Below, piece by piece: positions 2,964 to 11,345 of a DNA stretch of 17,357 nucleotides. The stretch spans positions 1-17,357 of the forward strand of contig JACPSX010000235.1 of assembly GCA_016193065.1 (NCBI GenBank). The letters are read 5' to 3'. Made by a program: the position numbers and the translations under genes. The notes beneath the pieces are model-generated. The model ran no database searches, was not told where the DNA came from, and saw nothing but the letters and a program-made list of their open reading frames with translations. The stretch is from Candidatus Tectimicrobiota bacterium. GTDB taxonomy: Bacteria; JACPSX01. How positions within the stretch are numbered: the stretch's first letter is position 1; each line of letters begins with the position of its first letter.

Positions 2964-3578
2964 TGTGATTTTTCAGGAGTATTCCCCCACTTTTAGCTGA
3001 GTTTTTCAGGAGCTTTCCGCCACCCCTTTTCAGGACCATTCCCCCACCCCCCGTGCGTCCCGAGTCGGGGATTCTCACCTCCCAGGAAAGGAGGTGGGCA
3101 TGGCCTATCGGGAGATGGGGATGGTGGAGATTCGAGAAGTAGTCCGCCGCTGGATGGGGAGCCAGGGCAACCGCGCCATTGCCCGGGCCACGGGCATCGA
3201 CCGGAAGACGGTGGCCAAGTACGTACGAGCGGCCCAAACCCTGGGCTTGTGTCGCGGGGGGCTGGCGGCGACCGACGAGCAGATCGCCGCCGTGCGACAG
3301 GCGGTGCTCTCGGCTCCCGAGCGCCCACCGAGCCCCGAGTCCCAAACACTGGAGCCCTATCGGGAACAGATCCGCGCCTGGTTGTCCCAGGATGGTCTGC
3401 GCTTGACCAAGATCTCCCGGCGGCTGAGGGCTCTGGGAGTCACCGTCTCCTACAGCACTCTCTATCGCTTCGCCCGCGCTCACTGCGACTTTGGCAACCC
3501 CGCGATCACCGTGCGGGTGGCCGAGCCTCCGCCCGGGGAAGCCGCCGAGGCCGACTTTGGAGTGCTCGGGATGTGCGG
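2964..3578 (+). mobile_element. IS21-family insertion sequence, left end with truncated istA
   Basis: The left terminus starts TGTGATTTTTCAGGAG at 2964. Two further copies of the tttttcagga...ttcc.ccac unit follow at about 3002 and 3027, the multiple terminal repeats typical of IS21-family ends (transposase-binding sites). It continues into istA and stops abruptly near 3578, where REP-type transposase remnant sequence begins. istB and the right end are absent from the window. Confidence 0.75.
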
Positions 3579-3615
3579 AAGAAAAAGGGGTCAGGCTTGC
3601 GTAATTGCCTTTTGA
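3100..3615 (+). pseudogene. istA: IS21-family transposase IstA, 5' fragment
   Basis: The frame starts at ATG 3100 behind aaaggagg; GTG 3094 overlaps that site and is less likely. The first 60 residues hold the helix-turn-helix, including [20 protein letters not shown], and a second DNA-binding segment follows with KISRRLRALGVTVSYSTLYR. The block VRVAEPPPGEAAEADFGVLG leads to the first catalytic Asp (ADFG) of the DDE domain. Homology ends right after this, near 3576; the last dozen codons are read from foreign repeat DNA to a stop at 3613-3615. About 160 of the family's usual 400-500 residues remain and two catalytic acids are missing, so no transposition activity is expected. Confidence 0.8.
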
Positions 3616-3745
3616 TGTTTGAACAATGGTTTCGCCTCTAACTTGCCTGCGCTGTTGATGCGCTGCGATGCCCCCATCGCCCGACTCAGCGTTGAGACGT
3701 CCCGGTTGAACCGTCGGGCGACTTTCGTCAGCGGCGCCCGCATCG
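3585..3745 (-). pseudogene. REP-type tyrosine transposase remnant, 3' end (copy 1)
   Basis: Read on the minus strand this encodes APLTKVARRFNRDVSTLSRA, the DnaA-like C-terminal helix-turn-helix found at the end of many REP-associated tyrosine transposases (RAYT), then a short tail to a stop near 3591. The DNA is strongly similar to 7524-7735 over the same segment; both share the terminal aaggggtcaggcttgcg unit and the run gttgagacgtcccggttgaa. The catalytic HUH and Tyr domain is absent. It abuts the broken istA. Confidence 0.65.
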
Positions 3746-3836: not shown

Positions 3837-3866
3837 TTGACAGGCGGTTTCGTTCAACAGTATCTT
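3837..3866 (+). promoter_or_regulatory. Candidate promoter of the restriction endonuclease gene
   Basis: TTGACA (3837-3842) is followed after 18 bases by TATCTT (3861-3866). It lies about 120 bases before the gene's GTG start. The region TTTGACA...TTCAACA contains half-sites resembling those of the operator before the methyltransferase gene (TGTTGAC...GTCAACA). Common control of both genes by the methyltransferase's helix-turn-helix is a possibility, by inference. Confidence 0.4.
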
Positions 3867-3984: not shown

Positions 3985-4869
3985 GTGACCGATCTCCCTG
4001 CAATCTCCTTTCTGCAATTGCGTCGACGGTTTTTTAGCGACGCCGGAGAACCCATCCCCTTCGTCCTGCGCGACAAACGCAACACCCAGGATGATCCATT
4101 CGACGAATTCCTTGCGGTTGATGTACTTGCCAACCTTGCCGCGATCTCGTGCGCCAGGGCAAGCGGTCCGCTTATCACGCCGGATATGGTCCTGTACCGG
4201 CCGGATCGGTGTGCCGGATCGGTGCTCGGCGACCTTGCCGACGACCCGGACCGGATTGTTGGGATCGAGGTGAAGAAGCTGGAACGGACGGCTCAAGGTG
4301 GTGTTGCCCGAGGGGCGGGCCTCGACTACAACACGACGCCGCCTTGCGGCCGAGTTCGCGTCTACGATGTGGCAGGAAGGGCTGTGGACATACGGGGGTT
4401 CTACCTCTTCGTGTGCTTGGAGAAGGCCCCTGCTGGCGCCCAAGGCGTTGTGGTCACGGCGCTGTGTCTAGTGGATGGGAACACCCTGAACGAAGACTTC
4501 AACTTGTACCTCAGCATCACCGGCGAGCGGGAGAAGCGTATCGGGCTCGGCACCTACGGGGACGGTGCCGACCGGGCGCGGCCAATGCTGATCTTCGCCA
4601 ATCCACTCGGTGCGGCTGAACTGGATCACTGTGCCACATTGATCCACCCCGACGCCAACCTCTCACAGAGCACGCCTGACCTGCTGCTCGCGTACCGTCT
4701 CCACCGGTCCGTTCCGGGCGATGGCATCCGGACCTTCTACTGCTACCGGATTAGCTCCGATCTGCCCCAGGATTGGCGGGTCAGCGACCTCCGGGATCCG
4801 CTTCCCATGCCAACCCGAGAAGCTCGGACCCGTCCACGGGGCCGCTTCAAGCTTCCCTTCCGCCTATAG
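3985..4869 (+). CDS. Putative type II restriction endonuclease (PD-(D/E)XK fold)
   Basis: This is a 294-residue soluble protein with a GTG start preceded by gagaggg. Residues 64-71 read ITPDMVLYR and residues 93-98 GIEVKK, giving the PD...ExK arrangement (Asp67, Glu95, Lys97) of PD-(D/E)XK nucleases. The stretch after it, GLDYNTTPPCGRVRVYD, looks like a conserved block, perhaps DNA recognition. I do not recognise a named enzyme. The gene is convergent with the adjacent methyltransferase gene and overlaps its 3' end by 23 bases, the arrangement expected of a restriction-modification pair. Cleavage of unmethylated DNA is therefore inferred from motif plus context. It has its own candidate promoter and a leader inverted repeat, which would let the nuclease be delayed relative to the methyltransferase. 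Recognition sequence cannot be predicted. Confidence 0.7.
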   Translation: MTDLPAISFLQLRRRFFSDAGEPIPFVLRDKRNTQDDPFDEFLAVDVLANLAAISCARASGPLITPDMVLYRPDRCAGSVLGDLADDPDRIVGIEVKKLERTAQGGVARGAGLDYNTTPPCGRVRVYDVAGRAVDIRGFYLFVCLEKAPAGAQGVVVTALCLVDGNTLNEDFNLYLSITGEREKRIGLGTYGDGADRARPMLIFANPLGAAELDHCATLIHPDANLSQSTPDLLLAYRLHRSVPGDGIRTFYCYRISSDLPQDWRVSDLRDPLPMPTREARTRPRGRFKLPFRL

Positions 4870-7372
4870 ACGCGGGCTCCAAGAGATCGAGCTGTACCGA
4901 CCCAGGCTGCGGTGCCACAGGGCCTGGCAGGGCACATATCTCTTGCTCGCGCCATGTCTTTTCGATAATTCCGCGAGTCCTGGGCAGGACAACCTCAAGG
5001 GCAGCACTCACCTCGTCCGCGGTCCGGCCTACGCTCATCTCCACGAGGAGCTGACTGAGTAGGACCACTCGCACATCGTTGCGGGAGAGCTGGCGCCCCA
5101 CCCCGTTGAATCGGCTGACCTTCTGACTGGTGCTTGCGACGGCGCGTTGCAGGGCTACGTTTTGCTCACTCCGGATGCGGTGATCTGAATTCCGCTTTCG
5201 GCAGACGAGAAGCACATCGAGGTCGATTGGCTCCTTCGCCTGACTCTTCGGAGCGGCTACTGACATCTCGGCCTTGACCGGCTGGCTCTGAACGATCGTG
5301 AACCCCGCGTCGCGAACGGCCCGCGCCAGGGCGGCCCACCCGTCCTCCCGCGAGTGGTGGTAGCTGAAGACGAGGAGACCTTCGTCCCGCAGCACGCGGT
5401 GGCACTCGGCAAAGACGCGCTTCAGCTTGTCCGCGAACGCATCGGCTTCCGTATCCTGGACTTCGGTGTTTCGCCGCGTCGTGGAAGCACCCTTCGAGCG
5501 ACCGTCACCGAAGTAGAGCTGCTGCCACACGAAGAAGAAGTCGGCGAGTTCGGAGAAGTGGACGTTGTAAAAGAAGGGCGGGTCCGTGATCACGAGGTCA
5601 ACGCTCCCGTCGGGAAGATCTGTGGCTGACGAGTCCCCGCAAGAGAGGTACGTGCTGCCAGGCTTCAGACCGCTTTTCGGACAGCGCTCGACGACAGGAC
5701 CACCCATTGGCGGGCTGATACCCACGACCTTCCTGCCTGTCTTCCGTCGGCCCGCGTACTCCACTGCGAGTTCAAAGGGGGCTTCACGGTAGTCGAGCGC
5801 GCGAAGCAGCCGAGACAAGTACAGCGTCGAGAAAGAGCCCGAGCTCTTCGGGGTACCCCATAGGTTGGCCTCGATGGGTGTTCGCTCCGGCTTCAAGATG
5901 TGATGCGAGAACATGTGCCGCACCGCGCCTGTGCCTTCCCCCTTATAGGACGCGAACATATTGTTAAACTCGAGTACGCCCGAGAATAGCACGGCAAGCG
6001 CTTCTCGGGCCGGGCCCTCCGGGAGATCCCGAATGGCACCAGCGAGCATCGACAGCGCAAGGAGCTGGCGCTCATTGAACAGCTCGTACCAGTTCCGATA
6101 CCCGTAGTTCAGGATCTGGCGCGTGTTGTGCCCGTCGGCGATGGGTACCCTCGGGAGCGGCGGATTGATGTTCCTCAGGCGCTCCCTTGCGGTATGGAAC
6201 GCGGCCAAGTCGTCGTCGGTAACGCGATGGTACCCTTTGGTTCCGTCCTTCCGAAGGACCAGCTTTGCGTATAGTCTGTGATCTGGAGGCTTACCAGCGC
6301 TCCGCGCCGTTTTCGCGATCGGGAACTCGTGTCCACACGAGCGGCAGACGGCTGTGGTTCGCTTCGCGGGCCCCTCCTGGGGATTGAAGCGCGTGCCACA
6401 CCGGCATATAGTCTCGGTATCGTCTTGTCGCCCCGAGAGCACATCGCTGCATTCTGGACAGGTGATCTTGGCCCCCGGGTTCCGCTCTTTATACGCGTGT
6501 GTCGCGAATACATAGCTTGTGAAGAGATCCACACTTGCCCTGCAGTGAGGGCACGGAATGACTTTGACCCAGAAGAAGTACAGTACGTCGCATGGTTGTC
6601 CCTCCCCGTCGACGGAGCGATAAAGCTTCTTGATCTCCTTGCCGACGGTGGACTCAAGCTTGCAGTAGAGAGCGTGGACCTCCCGGCGGTCCACTGGACC
6701 GAGTGCGACCCGGACCGCACGGTACGCCACGGCGTTGATGTCTCGGCCGATGACAGTGCACCCGAGCTTCTGCGCCTCGCCGACAGTAGTCCCGCTGCCC
6801 ATGAACGGGTCGAACACCACAACGCCTGGCAGGCGGACAGGTTCGTAGAAAAGGTCCGTGACCGACGAACCCTTGGGGGCCGCCGCCCCGAGGATTGCCG
6901 CTCGGAAGACAGATCCAAGACGTTGCGCCCACCACTTGTGGACGTGGTAAATGGGCCTGTAGATCTCCTTGCGCCAGCTCTCGACTTCGGCGATCTCACT
7001 GACCTCCTCGAAAGGGAAACCATCTTCGATCGCACGCTCGCCTTGCACGGCAAAGAGAGGCTTTCCGTAGGGCGCTCCGGGGTCAGCGGCGCACATCTCC
7101 GCAATTGTCCTCAGCGCGGCTGCCACCCGGTAGGGTTGCCTCACCACCATGGCTCGGATAGGTTCAGGAAGGCGCCCGGCAAGGAGCAGGATTTCGTCTT
7201 CTGGACACTCTAGAAACCTGGCGAGGCGGTGAATCAGTTGTTCCGAGGGAGGGACCTTGCCGGCTTCGACTCGGGACAAATAAGCGGGGTCGACACCTAG
7301 CTTCTGGGCAGCGAGGCGAAGAGAGATCCCTAGGGAAGTCCGTCGGTTCCGAATAAAAGTTCCAAAACTCAT
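4847..7372 (-). CDS. XRE-HTH / zinc-ribbon / DNA methyltransferase fusion (DUF1156-like)
   Basis: This 841-residue protein begins with an XRE-type helix-turn-helix (residues 1-65, with LRLAAQKLGVDPAYLSRVEA). Residues 140-165 (KWWAQRLGSVFRAA) precede the SAM-binding motif DPFMGSGTT (188-196). Four Cys pairs follow, CPHC 274-277, CPEC 305-308, CRC 323-325 and CRSC 343-346, likely zinc ribbons. The catalytic TDPPF motif is at 596-600, followed by LADFFFVW. The order SAM motif, insert, DPPF and the WWA and zinc blocks resemble DUF1156-type DNA methylases; amino-methylation (N6-A or N4-C) is inferred from DPPF. The tail (about 740-841) has no family I recognise. An N-terminal HTH on a methyltransferase usually represses its own promoter, as in the SsoII/EcoRII type, and a palindrome sits on this promoter. 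It is convergent with a nuclease gene. Confidence 0.8.
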   Translation of the reverse strand: MSFGTFIRNRRTSLGISLRLAAQKLGVDPAYLSRVEAGKVPPSEQLIHRLARFLECPEDEILLLAGRLPEPIRAMVVRQPYRVAAALRTIAEMCAADPGAPYGKPLFAVQGERAIEDGFPFEEVSEIAEVESWRKEIYRPIYHVHKWWAQRLGSVFRAAILGAAAPKGSSVTDLFYEPVRLPGVVVFDPFMGSGTTVGEAQKLGCTVIGRDINAVAYRAVRVALGPVDRREVHALYCKLESTVGKEIKKLYRSVDGEGQPCDVLYFFWVKVIPCPHCRASVDLFTSYVFATHAYKERNPGAKITCPECSDVLSGRQDDTETICRCGTRFNPQEGPAKRTTAVCRSCGHEFPIAKTARSAGKPPDHRLYAKLVLRKDGTKGYHRVTDDDLAAFHTARERLRNINPPLPRVPIADGHNTRQILNYGYRNWYELFNERQLLALSMLAGAIRDLPEGPAREALAVLFSGVLEFNNMFASYKGEGTGAVRHMFSHHILKPERTPIEANLWGTPKSSGSFSTLYLSRLLRALDYREAPFELAVEYAGRRKTGRKVVGISPPMGGPVVERCPKSGLKPGSTYLSCGDSSATDLPDGSVDLVITDPPFFYNVHFSELADFFFVWQQLYFGDGRSKGASTTRRNTEVQDTEADAFADKLKRVFAECHRVLRDEGLLVFSYHHSREDGWAALARAVRDAGFTIVQSQPVKAEMSVAAPKSQAKEPIDLDVLLVCRKRNSDHRIRSEQNVALQRAVASTSQKVSRFNGVGRQLSRNDVRVVLLSQLLVEMSVGRTADEVSAALEVVLPRTRGIIEKTWREQEICALPGPVAPQPGSVQLDLLEPASIGGREA

Positions 7373-7379
7373 GTTCTAC

Positions 7380-7410
7380 ATCTTAGGATGTGTTGACTTA
7401 TTCGTCAACA
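7380..7410 (-). promoter_or_regulatory. Promoter with palindromic operator for the methyltransferase; probably leaderless
   Basis: On the minus strand, TTGACG (7408-7403) is followed after exactly 17 bases by TAAGAT (7385-7380). Only 7 bases separate the -10 box from the ATG at 7372, so transcription would start at or next to the A of the start codon. No ribosome site is present. The perfect palindrome TGTTGAC-6-GTCAACA (7391-7410) covers the -35 box, as expected for an autorepressor operator. Confidence 0.7.
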
Positions 7411-7523
7411 CTTTTCTGTCAAACCGCTGTGAATGTATGCGAGACAGCATGATACGTCCAGAGTCTCTTTCGTTCAGCCGTCACGACAGGTATTAGCAGG
7501 AGGGGTCAGGAAGGGGTCACAGG

Positions 7524-7902
7524 AAGGGGTCAGGCTTGCGGAATTGCTTTGTGATGTTTGAAGAATGGTTTCGCCTCTGGCCTGCCTGTGCGCCTGCCCG
7601 CGCGGACACGCAGGCGGGGACACGCAGACAGGCCCGCCCGCGCTGGCGATGCGCTGCAATGCCCCCACCGCCCGACTCAGCGTTGAGACGTCCCGGTTGA
7701 ACCGTCGGGCGACTTCCGTCAGCGGCGCCGCACGGGTGCGCATTGTCAACCACCCGATCAAGGCGCGCGCCCGAGCCGCCTCGCGGCTTACCGCCCTCGC
7801 GAGACTCATCGCGCGGTTGCAGGTAATCCGTCCCTCCGGCGCGCAAGCGCGCATTGGGTCTGGCAGCTCAAGCCGCCGCCGCTCTCGGCACGAGATCATC
7901 AT
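7524..7902 (-). pseudogene. REP-type tyrosine transposase remnant, 3' part (copy 2)
   Basis: The minus strand reads from about 7902 with REAARARALIGWLTMRTR, then APLTEVARRFNRDVSTLSRA, the C-terminal DnaA-like helix-turn-helix of RAYT proteins. The catalytic HUH domain is missing. Compared with the copy at 3585-3745, it carries about 45 extra bases (roughly 7577-7636) with direct repeats of gacacgcag and G/C-rich self-complementary arms, resembling a small REP hairpin insertion. The end aaggggtcaggcttgcg (7524-7540) is preceded by two further partial copies of aggggtca at 7501-7520. The copy probably continued upstream before hicB was placed beside it. Confidence 0.65.
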
Positions 7903-7952: not shown

Positions 7953-8153
7953 ATGAAGATTGAGATCGAGCGTGAAGACGACGGTCGATGGATTGCCGAG
8001 GTACCCGACCTGTCCGGGGTCATGGCATATGGAGAGACGCGTGAAGAGGCCATCGCGAAAGTCCAATCCCTTGCCCTGCGAGTGATCGCCGACCGCCTTG
8101 ACCATGGCGAAGCTATTCCGCAGCTCGACGAACTCTTCACGGTACCCGCGTGA
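7953..8153 (+). CDS. hicB: HicB-family antitoxin
   Basis: This 66-residue protein begins MKIEIEREDDGRWIAEVPDL, then SGVMAYGETREEAIAKVQSL, the compact partial RNase H-like fold of HicB antitoxins: a beta hairpin with the conserved D-G-R-W-I-A-E-V-P pattern, then a G-x-T-x-E-E-A helix. No C-terminal DNA-binding domain is present, as in short HicB forms. It would bind and neutralise the HicA RNase encoded next; the genes overlap at 8150-8153. The antitoxin gene comes first, reversing the common hicA-hicB order. With the toxin gene frameshifted, it now looks like a solitary antitoxin. Confidence 0.85.
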   Translation: MKIEIEREDDGRWIAEVPDLSGVMAYGETREEAIAKVQSLALRVIADRLDHGEAIPQLDELFTVPA

Positions 8154-9663: not shown

Positions 9664-10491
9664 ATGGCACGAAATATAACTAGTCTTGGCGCCAAGGAAA
9701 GCGACTTTCTGACCAGTCTTGCTGCAAAGGGTAAGACAATCTTTACCGGGCGGGAAGTCCGAGAATTGCTAGGTCTTTCATCCACTCCGAAACTCTTACT
9801 TTCCCGATTGGAGCGAAAGGGGTGGGTCAAGCGGTTGGAGAGAGACCGCTACCTCTTGGTTCCCCTGGAAGCGGGACCCGAGCGTCTCTGGTCGGAGGAC
9901 GCTACGCTGGTCGCGATGGCCTTGGCACCGGAAGGGGCCCTGGCTTACTGGTCAGCTATCCGCCATTGGGGGTGGACCGATCAACTTCCGCGCACCGTTT
10001 TCGTTCAGATGATGCGGCGTCGGGCCAACTCGATCGTTGAGGCCCTCGGGGTGACCTATCGTTTCGTCACGGTCCGGCCGATCCGGTTCTTCGGGGTTAT
10101 CGAGGAGCGAGCCGATCATCGGACCTTCCGGGTCACCGATCGGGAAAAGACAGTGATTGATATTCTCGACCGGATCGACCTTTCCGGAGGGTCGGGACAG
10201 GTCATCCAGACCTTAGAGGAAGCTGTGGAAGAACTGCGTTGGGATAGGCTGGATGGCTACCTTCGCAGGTTCAGGAGCAGGACTGTACCGAAACGCCTGG
10301 GCTTCCTGGTAGAAGCCCTTCCCCTGAAGGTTCCCGACCGGGAACATCGACTGGCGGAATGGCAGAGGCTTATCGGTCGTGGGATCAGTCTTCTTGATCC
10401 GGGGGGCCCGGCACTCGGACCTATCATCACCCGATGGCGGGTGCGAGTGAATGTCCACGGGTTGATTCCAGAGTCCTTCACGTCCTTATGA
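9664..10491 (+). CDS. abiEi: AbiEi-type antitoxin / transcriptional repressor
   Basis: This 275-residue protein has an N-terminal winged helix-turn-helix (about residues 10-65, including REVRELLGLSSTPKLLLSRL and the RDRYLLVPLEAG wing). The middle part (YWSAIRHWGWTDQLPRTVFV) and the FRVTDREKTVIDILDRIDLS block are typical of AbiEi proteins. In type IV toxin-antitoxin systems AbiEi represses the operon and counteracts the AbiEii nucleotidyltransferase without binding it. ATG 9664 follows ggag by 8 bases. The stop overlaps the abiEii start as ATGA, implying translational coupling and the standard antitoxin-first order. The C-terminal domain is longer than a bare HTH regulator, as expected. High confidence in the family; the phage target is unknown. 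Confidence 0.85.
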   Translation: MARNITSLGAKESDFLTSLAAKGKTIFTGREVRELLGLSSTPKLLLSRLERKGWVKRLERDRYLLVPLEAGPERLWSEDATLVAMALAPEGALAYWSAIRHWGWTDQLPRTVFVQMMRRRANSIVEALGVTYRFVTVRPIRFFGVIEERADHRTFRVTDREKTVIDILDRIDLSGGSGQVIQTLEEAVEELRWDRLDGYLRRFRSRTVPKRLGFLVEALPLKVPDREHRLAEWQRLIGRGISLLDPGGPALGPIITRWRVRVNVHGLIPESFTSL

Positions 10492-11345
10492 TCCCCGATA
10501 GTGAGATCCGTCAGCGTGCTCGAAGTGATGATGTGGAGCCGGTCATCGTGGAGCGGGATTATGTGCTCGGGTGGGTTCTGGCAGGTTGTTTCCGACCGGA
10601 GATAGAAAAAGGATTATGGTTCTTTAAGGGAGGCACCTGCCTCAAGAAGTGCTATTTTCCGGACTATCGGTTTTCACAAGACCTTGATTTCACTCTGACG
10701 ACGCCGCTGGCCTCATCGGAAGTTGAAGGGATACTTGACGAAGCGATGCGATGGGCTGAAGAAGCTTCGGGCATTCGGTTCAGCGAGCGGCCCATTCGCC
10801 ACCAAGTCGTTTTCGAAGGGACACAGCAGGAGACTCACCGCTTTAAGGTTTATTACCGAGGCCCCCACAGACAGGTAGGGGACCAGCCGTCAATCAAGCT
10901 GGACTTGACGCTCAATGAGCGAGTCCTGATTCCTGCAGTGGAACGCCCTCTGGTTCACCCATATTCTGACCAGGAAATCCAAGGATCCATCGCTATCCGT
11001 TCGTATACCCTTGAGGAAGTATTGGCAGAGAAGATCCGGGCAGTGAGTGGGCAGCGCCGCTACGCGCTTTCTCGAGATCTGTTCGACATTCACCAACTGA
11101 TCCGGAGGGGGGCCGACATAATTCGAGTTGCTCGGATTCTGCGGGAAAAGTGCGCGCTCAAGGGAGTTCCTGTTGAAGCAGTCTCGGCGAAAACTCTTTC
11201 ACAGAGAAAGGAGTCGTTTCATCGGGACTGGGAGACCAACCTTTTCCACCTCCTGCCTCTCCATCTTCGTGTCCCCTTTGAGGAAAGTTGGGATGAGGCC
11301 ACCGCAGGGGTTGAGTCGGTTCGCCGAGAACTCAACGCACCATGA
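10488..11345 (+). CDS. abiEii: AbiEii/AbiGii nucleotidyltransferase toxin
   Basis: This 285-residue protein has the DNA-polymerase-beta-like nucleotidyltransferase signature: FKGGTCLKKCYF then YRFSQDLDFTL around residues 38-65 (Gly-Gly-Thr, then Ser...Asp-x-Asp, metal-binding). A third acid lies in IKLDLTLNE. The later block LEEVLAEKIRAVSG then SRDLFDIHQLI is also characteristic. The protein is expected to add nucleotides to an RNA target, blocking translation or growth when released from AbiEi control. ATG 10488 overlaps the abiEi stop by four bases; an upstream in-frame start at 10434 would overlap much more and is unlikely. All motifs look intact, so the operon appears functional. About 200 bases without a gene follow. 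Confidence 0.85.
   Translation: MIPDSEIRQRARSDDVEPVIVERDYVLGWVLAGCFRPEIEKGLWFFKGGTCLKKCYFPDYRFSQDLDFTLTTPLASSEVEGILDEAMRWAEEASGIRFSERPIRHQVVFEGTQQETHRFKVYYRGPHRQVGDQPSIKLDLTLNERVLIPAVERPLVHPYSDQEIQGSIAIRSYTLEEVLAEKIRAVSGQRRYALSRDLFDIHQLIRRGADIIRVARILREKCALKGVPVEAVSAKTLSQRKESFHRDWETNLFHLLPLHLRVPFEESWDEATAGVESVRRELNAP

Follow-up and report, generated by a model that had tools for sequence, protein, structure and literature searches.

The 17,357-bp window analyzed here, one entire contig (C188; JACPSX010000235.1) of the 2.9-Mb draft genome of a Candidatus Tectimicrobiota bacterium in 294 contigs, carries two convergent genes that we interpret, with a probability of about 80%, as a complete mobile Type II-like restriction-modification (RM) system whose methyltransferase is autorepressed via a helix-turn-helix (HTH) domain at its own operator. 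The first gene, R, encodes a predicted restriction endonuclease of the PD-(D/E)xK type (positions 3985-4869, + strand; 294 amino acids (aa), GTG start). The second gene, M, encodes a predicted amino-DNA-methyltransferase of the N6-adenine or N4-cytosine class with an N-terminal HTH (4847-7372, - strand; 841 aa, ATG start). These coordinates, the convergent arrangement and the tail-to-tail overlap of 23 bp confirm what an earlier reading of this DNA from its letters, hereafter the sequence-only reading, had reported for the two open reading frames (ORFs).

A scan of approximately 85,000 species genomes returned 21 homologues of R. They are distributed over Pseudomonadota, Myxococcota/Thermodesulfobacteriota, Nitrospirota, Latescibacterota and Methylomirabilota, and further over Chloroflexota, Actinomycetota, Bacillota, Planctomycetota and one Thermoplasmata archaeon. 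The co-occurrence of the two genes across genomes, which the sequence-only reading had named as a check on its proposed pair, was clearly borne out: an M gene is directly adjacent in 20 of the 21 loci, and the sole unpaired locus (L031) holds a truncated R remnant. Pairwise distances of R and M correlate with r = 0.94 (Mantel p 0.0005), which is the expectation if both genes move and evolve together. Most pairs are convergent like that of the window; tandem arrangements occur in L025, L026 and L027, and a further draft genome, G086, has an HTH-bearing M in tandem behind a frameshifted R. A search through the phylum of G086 did not find new loci. Both frames are kept in distant organisms at 42-69% identity over nearly their full length, while the flanking genes vary among the eight loci listed and a recurring third gene is absent. 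Pairing and frame conservation beyond chance thus mark R and M, as judged from these sequences, as a real and mobile Type II-like RM unit. Weak matches were also obtained in G021 (37% identity) and G138 (30%); they span 60-69 residues and lie within ORFs of about 700 aa.

The domain architecture of M was assigned by profile searches, which matched HTH_31 (E 1.1e-12), HTH_3 (E 1.1e-11) and N6_N4_Mtase (E 1.7e-14). The XRE/434-type HTH domain covers residues 3-61 (7190-7366, - strand) and is also recovered by structural matches to C.BclI (TMt 0.75), the P22 c2 repressor (TMt 0.85) and the 434 repressor (TMt 0.82). An alignment of 18 M sequences, N6_N4_Mtase being detected in all of them, shows the key positions of motifs I and IV to be invariant. 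The S-adenosylmethionine-binding motif I, DPFMGSG (residues 188-194; 6791-6811, - strand), is invariant at D188, P189, F190, G192, S193 and G194, as is the catalytic motif IV, TDPPF (residues 596-600; 5573-5587, - strand), in the 18 sequences. With its N6_N4_Mtase domain and TDPPF motif, M does not show the C5-cytosine catalytic domain of the M.SsoII type. Structure comparison of its Rossmann core with class I methyltransferases gave Z values of about 16. Within this core, an insert of about 350 residues separates motifs I and IV. It should hold the target-recognition region, and it contains four Cys pairs (274/277, 305/308, 323/325 and 343/346; residues 274-346; 6335-6553, - strand) that are conserved among homologues and are predicted to form zinc ribbons; at the third pair, the window has CxC where most homologues have CxxC.

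M had been described in the sequence-only reading as a fusion of an XRE HTH, a DUF1156-like core and four Cys pairs. The HTH and the Cys pairs were recovered. The DUF1156 assignment stays below the curated thresholds: DUF1156 (PF06634) scored 16.4 bits on M, under the Pfam gathering cut-off of 24, and the NCBIfam model DUF1156_antiphage (NF042963) scored 100 bits, far under its cut-off of 1000. By these scores, the assignment is a sub-threshold resemblance only. The motif order and the target-recognition insert described for DUF1156 methyltransferases in a BREX survey (PMC12839542) agree with M.

The sequence of R was not matched by anything in Pfam, NCBIfam, PADLOC, PHROGs or PDB, and the R family alignment as query against Pfam, PADLOC and PDB was likewise unmatched. 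The sequence-only reading could not match the nuclease to a named enzyme, and the R family, named by none of the searched libraries, appears to be undescribed. The PD...ExK residues noted before in R proved real and conserved in the family. They comprise P66-D67 (4180-4185, + strand), kept in every homologue complete in that region, and E95-V96-K97 (4267-4275, + strand), of which E95 and K97 are invariant; in an AlphaFold2 (AF2) model with a confident core (pTM 0.84), D67, E95 and K97 fall at predicted strands 68-71 and 91-99. Upstream of these, the segment D36-D37-P-x-D40-E41 includes E41 (4105-4107, + strand; predicted helix 38-47) as candidate helix acid, comparable to E45 of EcoRV. P66, D67 and this segment are present in at least 90% of the sequences, the exceptions stemming mainly from one N-terminally truncated member. 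A wider set including viral copies has D36, D37, P38, D40, P66, D67, E95 and K97 in all members. Two further conserved blocks, GLDYNTTPPCG and RxRPMLIFANPL, are the family's own.

The order of helix acid, PD and E-x-K in R matches that of E45, D74, D90 and K92 in EcoRV. For a nuclease fold, the other check proposed for R, the outcome is suggestive. When the R model was aligned with VIA-align, every one of rows 1-41 was a Type II restriction enzyme, with SwaI best (Z 6.9), then EcoRV (6.7) and HincII (6.2), followed by BglI and SfiI. In our reading the fold of R is probably EcoRV/SwaI-like, although these modest Z values are suggestive only.

The region upstream of M contains the palindrome GTGTTGACTTATTCGTCAACAC (7390-7411); related palindromes are found upstream of 13 out of 13 HTH-bearing M genes and of none of seven HTH-less ones. 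Scored out of 14 against the pattern TGTTGAY-N6-RTCAACA, in whose definition L002 and L034 were left out, the window site GTGTTGACGAATAAGTCAACAC is a perfect match and the sole site within 3 mismatches. All 13 HTH-bearing loci score 10-14/14, with the operator starting 37-42 nt before the M start codon (59 in the archaeon). Six HTH-less loci score just 7-9/14 upstream of M, and a comparable site was not found near M in the seventh, L034. In shuffling tests, p reached its minimum possible value of 0.001 for nine of the 13 sites (window, L011, L012, L015, L016, L020, L021, L029 and L002) and was 0.018 for the archaeal locus L024. Co-distribution of HTH and operator gave a Fisher p of 1.3e-5, uncorrected for relatedness. 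In the tree built from the M core without its HTH, the HTH-plus-operator state needs 3 changes, at least 2 of them forced by well-supported branches; L013 and L014 possess neither HTH nor operator, though the tree groups them with positive relatives. Remnants of an HTH were not found in the HTH-less loci save for a weak 29-residue match in L014, far from M.

The operator is embedded in the M promoter (7380-7408, - strand). Here, the -35 hexamer TTGACG lies inside the operator, followed by a 17-nt spacer, the -10 hexamer TAAGAT and 7 nt to the ATG, and the message of M is probably leaderless. Across 4.1 kb, three sigma-70-like sites were found against 0.7 expected, and this promoter is among them. 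The left operator arm coincides with the -35 hexamer in 12 of the 13 loci, with spacers of 16-18 nt and 6-10 nt from the -10 to the start codon; the archaeal locus is the one exception to this geometry. In this Thermoplasmata locus (L024), the HTH-methyltransferase is accompanied by the related palindrome TTTGACTGATTAGTCAAA at -59, and a sigma-70-like geometry is absent. Because the conserved operator occurs only where the HTH is present, we read the HTH as the built-in repressor that the sequence-only reading had claimed, very probably rightly; most likely it is the autorepressor of M. R has a sigma-70-type promoter candidate of its own (TTGACA-18-TATCTT, 10/12; 3837-3866, + strand), which is located 118 bp upstream of R and is operator-free. 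Degenerate TTGAC/TCAAC half-sites in this region were rejected as an operator for their wrong spacing.

Several observations weigh against the interpretation as an autorepressed RM system. The operators of the Nitrospirota loci L017-L019 score 10/14 and are not significant on their own (p 0.09-0.17), and the HTH-bearing loci are partly close relatives, so that the counts are not fully independent. No M-type operator scoring at least 12/14 was found near R, and the operator offers no account of a delay of R. In addition, the fold match of R is modest: since no Z value reaches 8 and the Foldseek E-values are weak (best E 0.038), membership in this fold is only suggestive.

Related genes are also found on mobile elements. 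The four plasmid-borne genes closest to M (Tabrizicola, Acidiphilium, Rhodococcus and Tomitella) each have, directly upstream, a gene for a protein of roughly 250-275 aa that carries the annotation hypothetical or DUF956. By profile comparison with hhalign (probability 95.8, E 7e-9) this protein is a distant homologue of R, with its own version of the motif, YPDF...E(I/V)KGL. Searching with this homologue returned exactly the four plasmid records. The genes (L006:1543-2370, L007:5129-5947, L008:5199-5948 and L009:5228-6025) are located on mobilizable or conjugative plasmids, and each overlaps a methyltransferase gene without HTH at the latter's start. The window R as query matched nothing in the plasmid and phage record collections, nor did the phage-contig version of R in the phage records.

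In a scan of viral sequences, the single R protein found nothing and the R alignment found three loci. Two of these are lone copies of R with an intact PD...ExK motif, at L035:5001-5858 on viral contig IMGVR_UViG_3300010413_002075 and at L036:5001-5855 on IMGVR_UViG_3300027792_000015. The contigs measure 62.8 and 105 kb, with unrelated genes on either side of R. Searches of these two records with the M profile and with PF01555 found no methyltransferase; the records may be fragments. The lone copies suggest that R can act alone, and it is a possibility that the phages carrying it have modified DNA or DNA without the R site. The contigs are large and phage-like and bear genes of metabolism and translation, with glutamine synthetase, EF-Ts, a GroEL fragment and peptide deformylase identified by eye.

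These features are consistent with the following scheme. M would methylate adenine N6 or cytosine N4 at its site, and R would be a self-sufficient nuclease of about 290 aa, probably dimeric, that cuts the same site if it is unmethylated. Upon entry into a naive cell, M would be strongly expressed first, probably from a leaderless message, and protect the DNA. Its HTH would then bind the palindrome over the -35 box and repress M. This later self-shutdown would avoid an over-methylation that protects incoming phage, so that R, transcribed from its own promoter convergent to M, could restrict incoming DNA.

The closest regulatory precedent is SsoII/Ecl18kI, where M.SsoII uses its N-terminal HTH to bind an inverted repeat within the promoter of its own gene; the resulting autorepression indirectly frees the R promoter as well (PMC3978073, PMC3874152). 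The window shares with it the two-gene Type II organization, a 434-repressor-like HTH at the N-terminus of M and an operator overlapping the M promoter. However, M.SsoII is a 379-residue C5-cytosine enzyme, whereas M has 841 residues, predicted zinc ribbons and the motifs of an amino-methyltransferase. There, the M and R promoters compete; here, R and M converge without a common promoter region, and therefore promoter competition of the SsoII type cannot apply. Type II systems with C proteins (C.BclI, PvuII) likewise use an XRE-type HTH regulator, C.BclI being among the closest structures to the HTH of M, and leaderless transcripts are discussed for them as they are probable for M. Their regulator either stands alone as a small protein or is joined to R (C-R fusions, PMC3850674), in contrast to the fusion to M seen here, and no separate HTH gene resembling the M HTH was found in the loci examined.

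Compared with the DUF1156 methyltransferases of BREX-related (DUF499) systems and of other systems with several genes, M has a similar amino-methyltransferase core and large recognition insert (PMC12839542) but scores far under the family cut-offs and has one small nuclease as partner. No DUF499-type ATPase, helicase-nuclease or PglZ was found among the window neighbours of M. R resembles the EcoRV, SwaI and HincII enzymes in the order of catalytic residues and, suggestively, in its predicted fold, yet sequence similarity is undetectable and R has E-x-K where EcoRV has D-x-K. Separate R and M genes unaccompanied by an ATPase, helicase or specificity gene are the usual layout of Type II systems. 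Since both this layout and the regulatory principle are already known, the proposal of an undescribed RM type was too strong. The nuclease family itself appears to be undescribed, as does its pairing with a DUF1156-related amino-methyltransferase bearing an HTH switch. We found no published account of the pair in a search that ran without REBASE and most subscription journals.

In the window, the pair is flanked by two copies of a dispersed genomic repeat in the same orientation (3585-3738 and 7524-7729, both + strand). Copies of the repeat are 88-94% identical, with 14 matches in the genome, and it encodes the fragment APLTEVARRFNRDVSTLSRA, which by eye resembles the end of a transposase associated with repetitive extragenic palindromes (REP). 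An N-terminal fragment of an IS21-type insertion sequence (IS) transposase (3094-3615) ends where the repeat begins. Further neighbours are genes for an FRG-domain protein (1319-2110) and a HEAT-repeat protein (2225-2947), a HicB-like antitoxin-type ORF (7953-8153) and an AbiEi/AbiEii pair (9664-11345). By its predicted gene content, the R/M pair with these neighbours is a small defence island. Among the neighbours (FRG, HEAT, HicB-like and AbiE), neither an ATP-dependent motor nor a separate specificity subunit was found.

Other explanations of the pair were considered. The HTH might serve methylation target recognition or control other genes, the palindrome being the site of another regulator or a terminator. 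XRE domains are able to bind many sites, and a stem-loop followed by T's was flagged on the + strand at 7390-7411. Nevertheless, the palindrome keeps a near-constant distance to the M start, overlaps the -35 in 12 loci and is lost together with the HTH, and the seven HTH-less relatives presumably methylate, which makes this explanation unlikely. We regard it as distinctly unlikely, too, that the nuclease is methylation-dependent (Type IV-like) or needs M as specificity subunit in one complex. The unusual size of M, which would supply target recognition, and the nearly constant joint travel of the genes would fit such a complex; a methylation-dependent nuclease next to its own methyltransferase, however, would attack the host, and the two phage contigs with intact R and no detected N6_N4 methyltransferase, possibly fragmentary records, suggest solo action.

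The genes lie between repeats and an IS fragment and might be a remnant, decayed or silent and no longer functional; we consider this very improbable. The dispersed repeats on both sides and the truncated transposase nearby speak for it, but both ORFs are full length with all invariant residues, and promoter and operator are intact.

On a wider scale, and more tentatively, being somewhat short of even odds in our estimate, R and M may represent an undescribed and widespread RM family. It would join a new family of restriction enzymes to a methyltransferase of DUF1156 lineage, with the fused repressor and its operator gained or lost jointly at least twice, and would extend across bacteria, an archaeon and mobile elements; the nuclease alone would have been taken by large phages, perhaps for the destruction of host or rival DNA. 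None of the searched libraries recognizes this restriction-enzyme family, and R would be missed by annotation and by defence-system surveys that rely on them. How phages survive with the nuclease but no visible methyltransferase partner is a question posed by the lone copies. Finally, the principle of an autorepressing methyltransferase would here be seen in a lineage of amino-methyltransferases that is related to the BREX-type enzymes, and the joint presence or absence of HTH and operator makes for a directly testable prediction.

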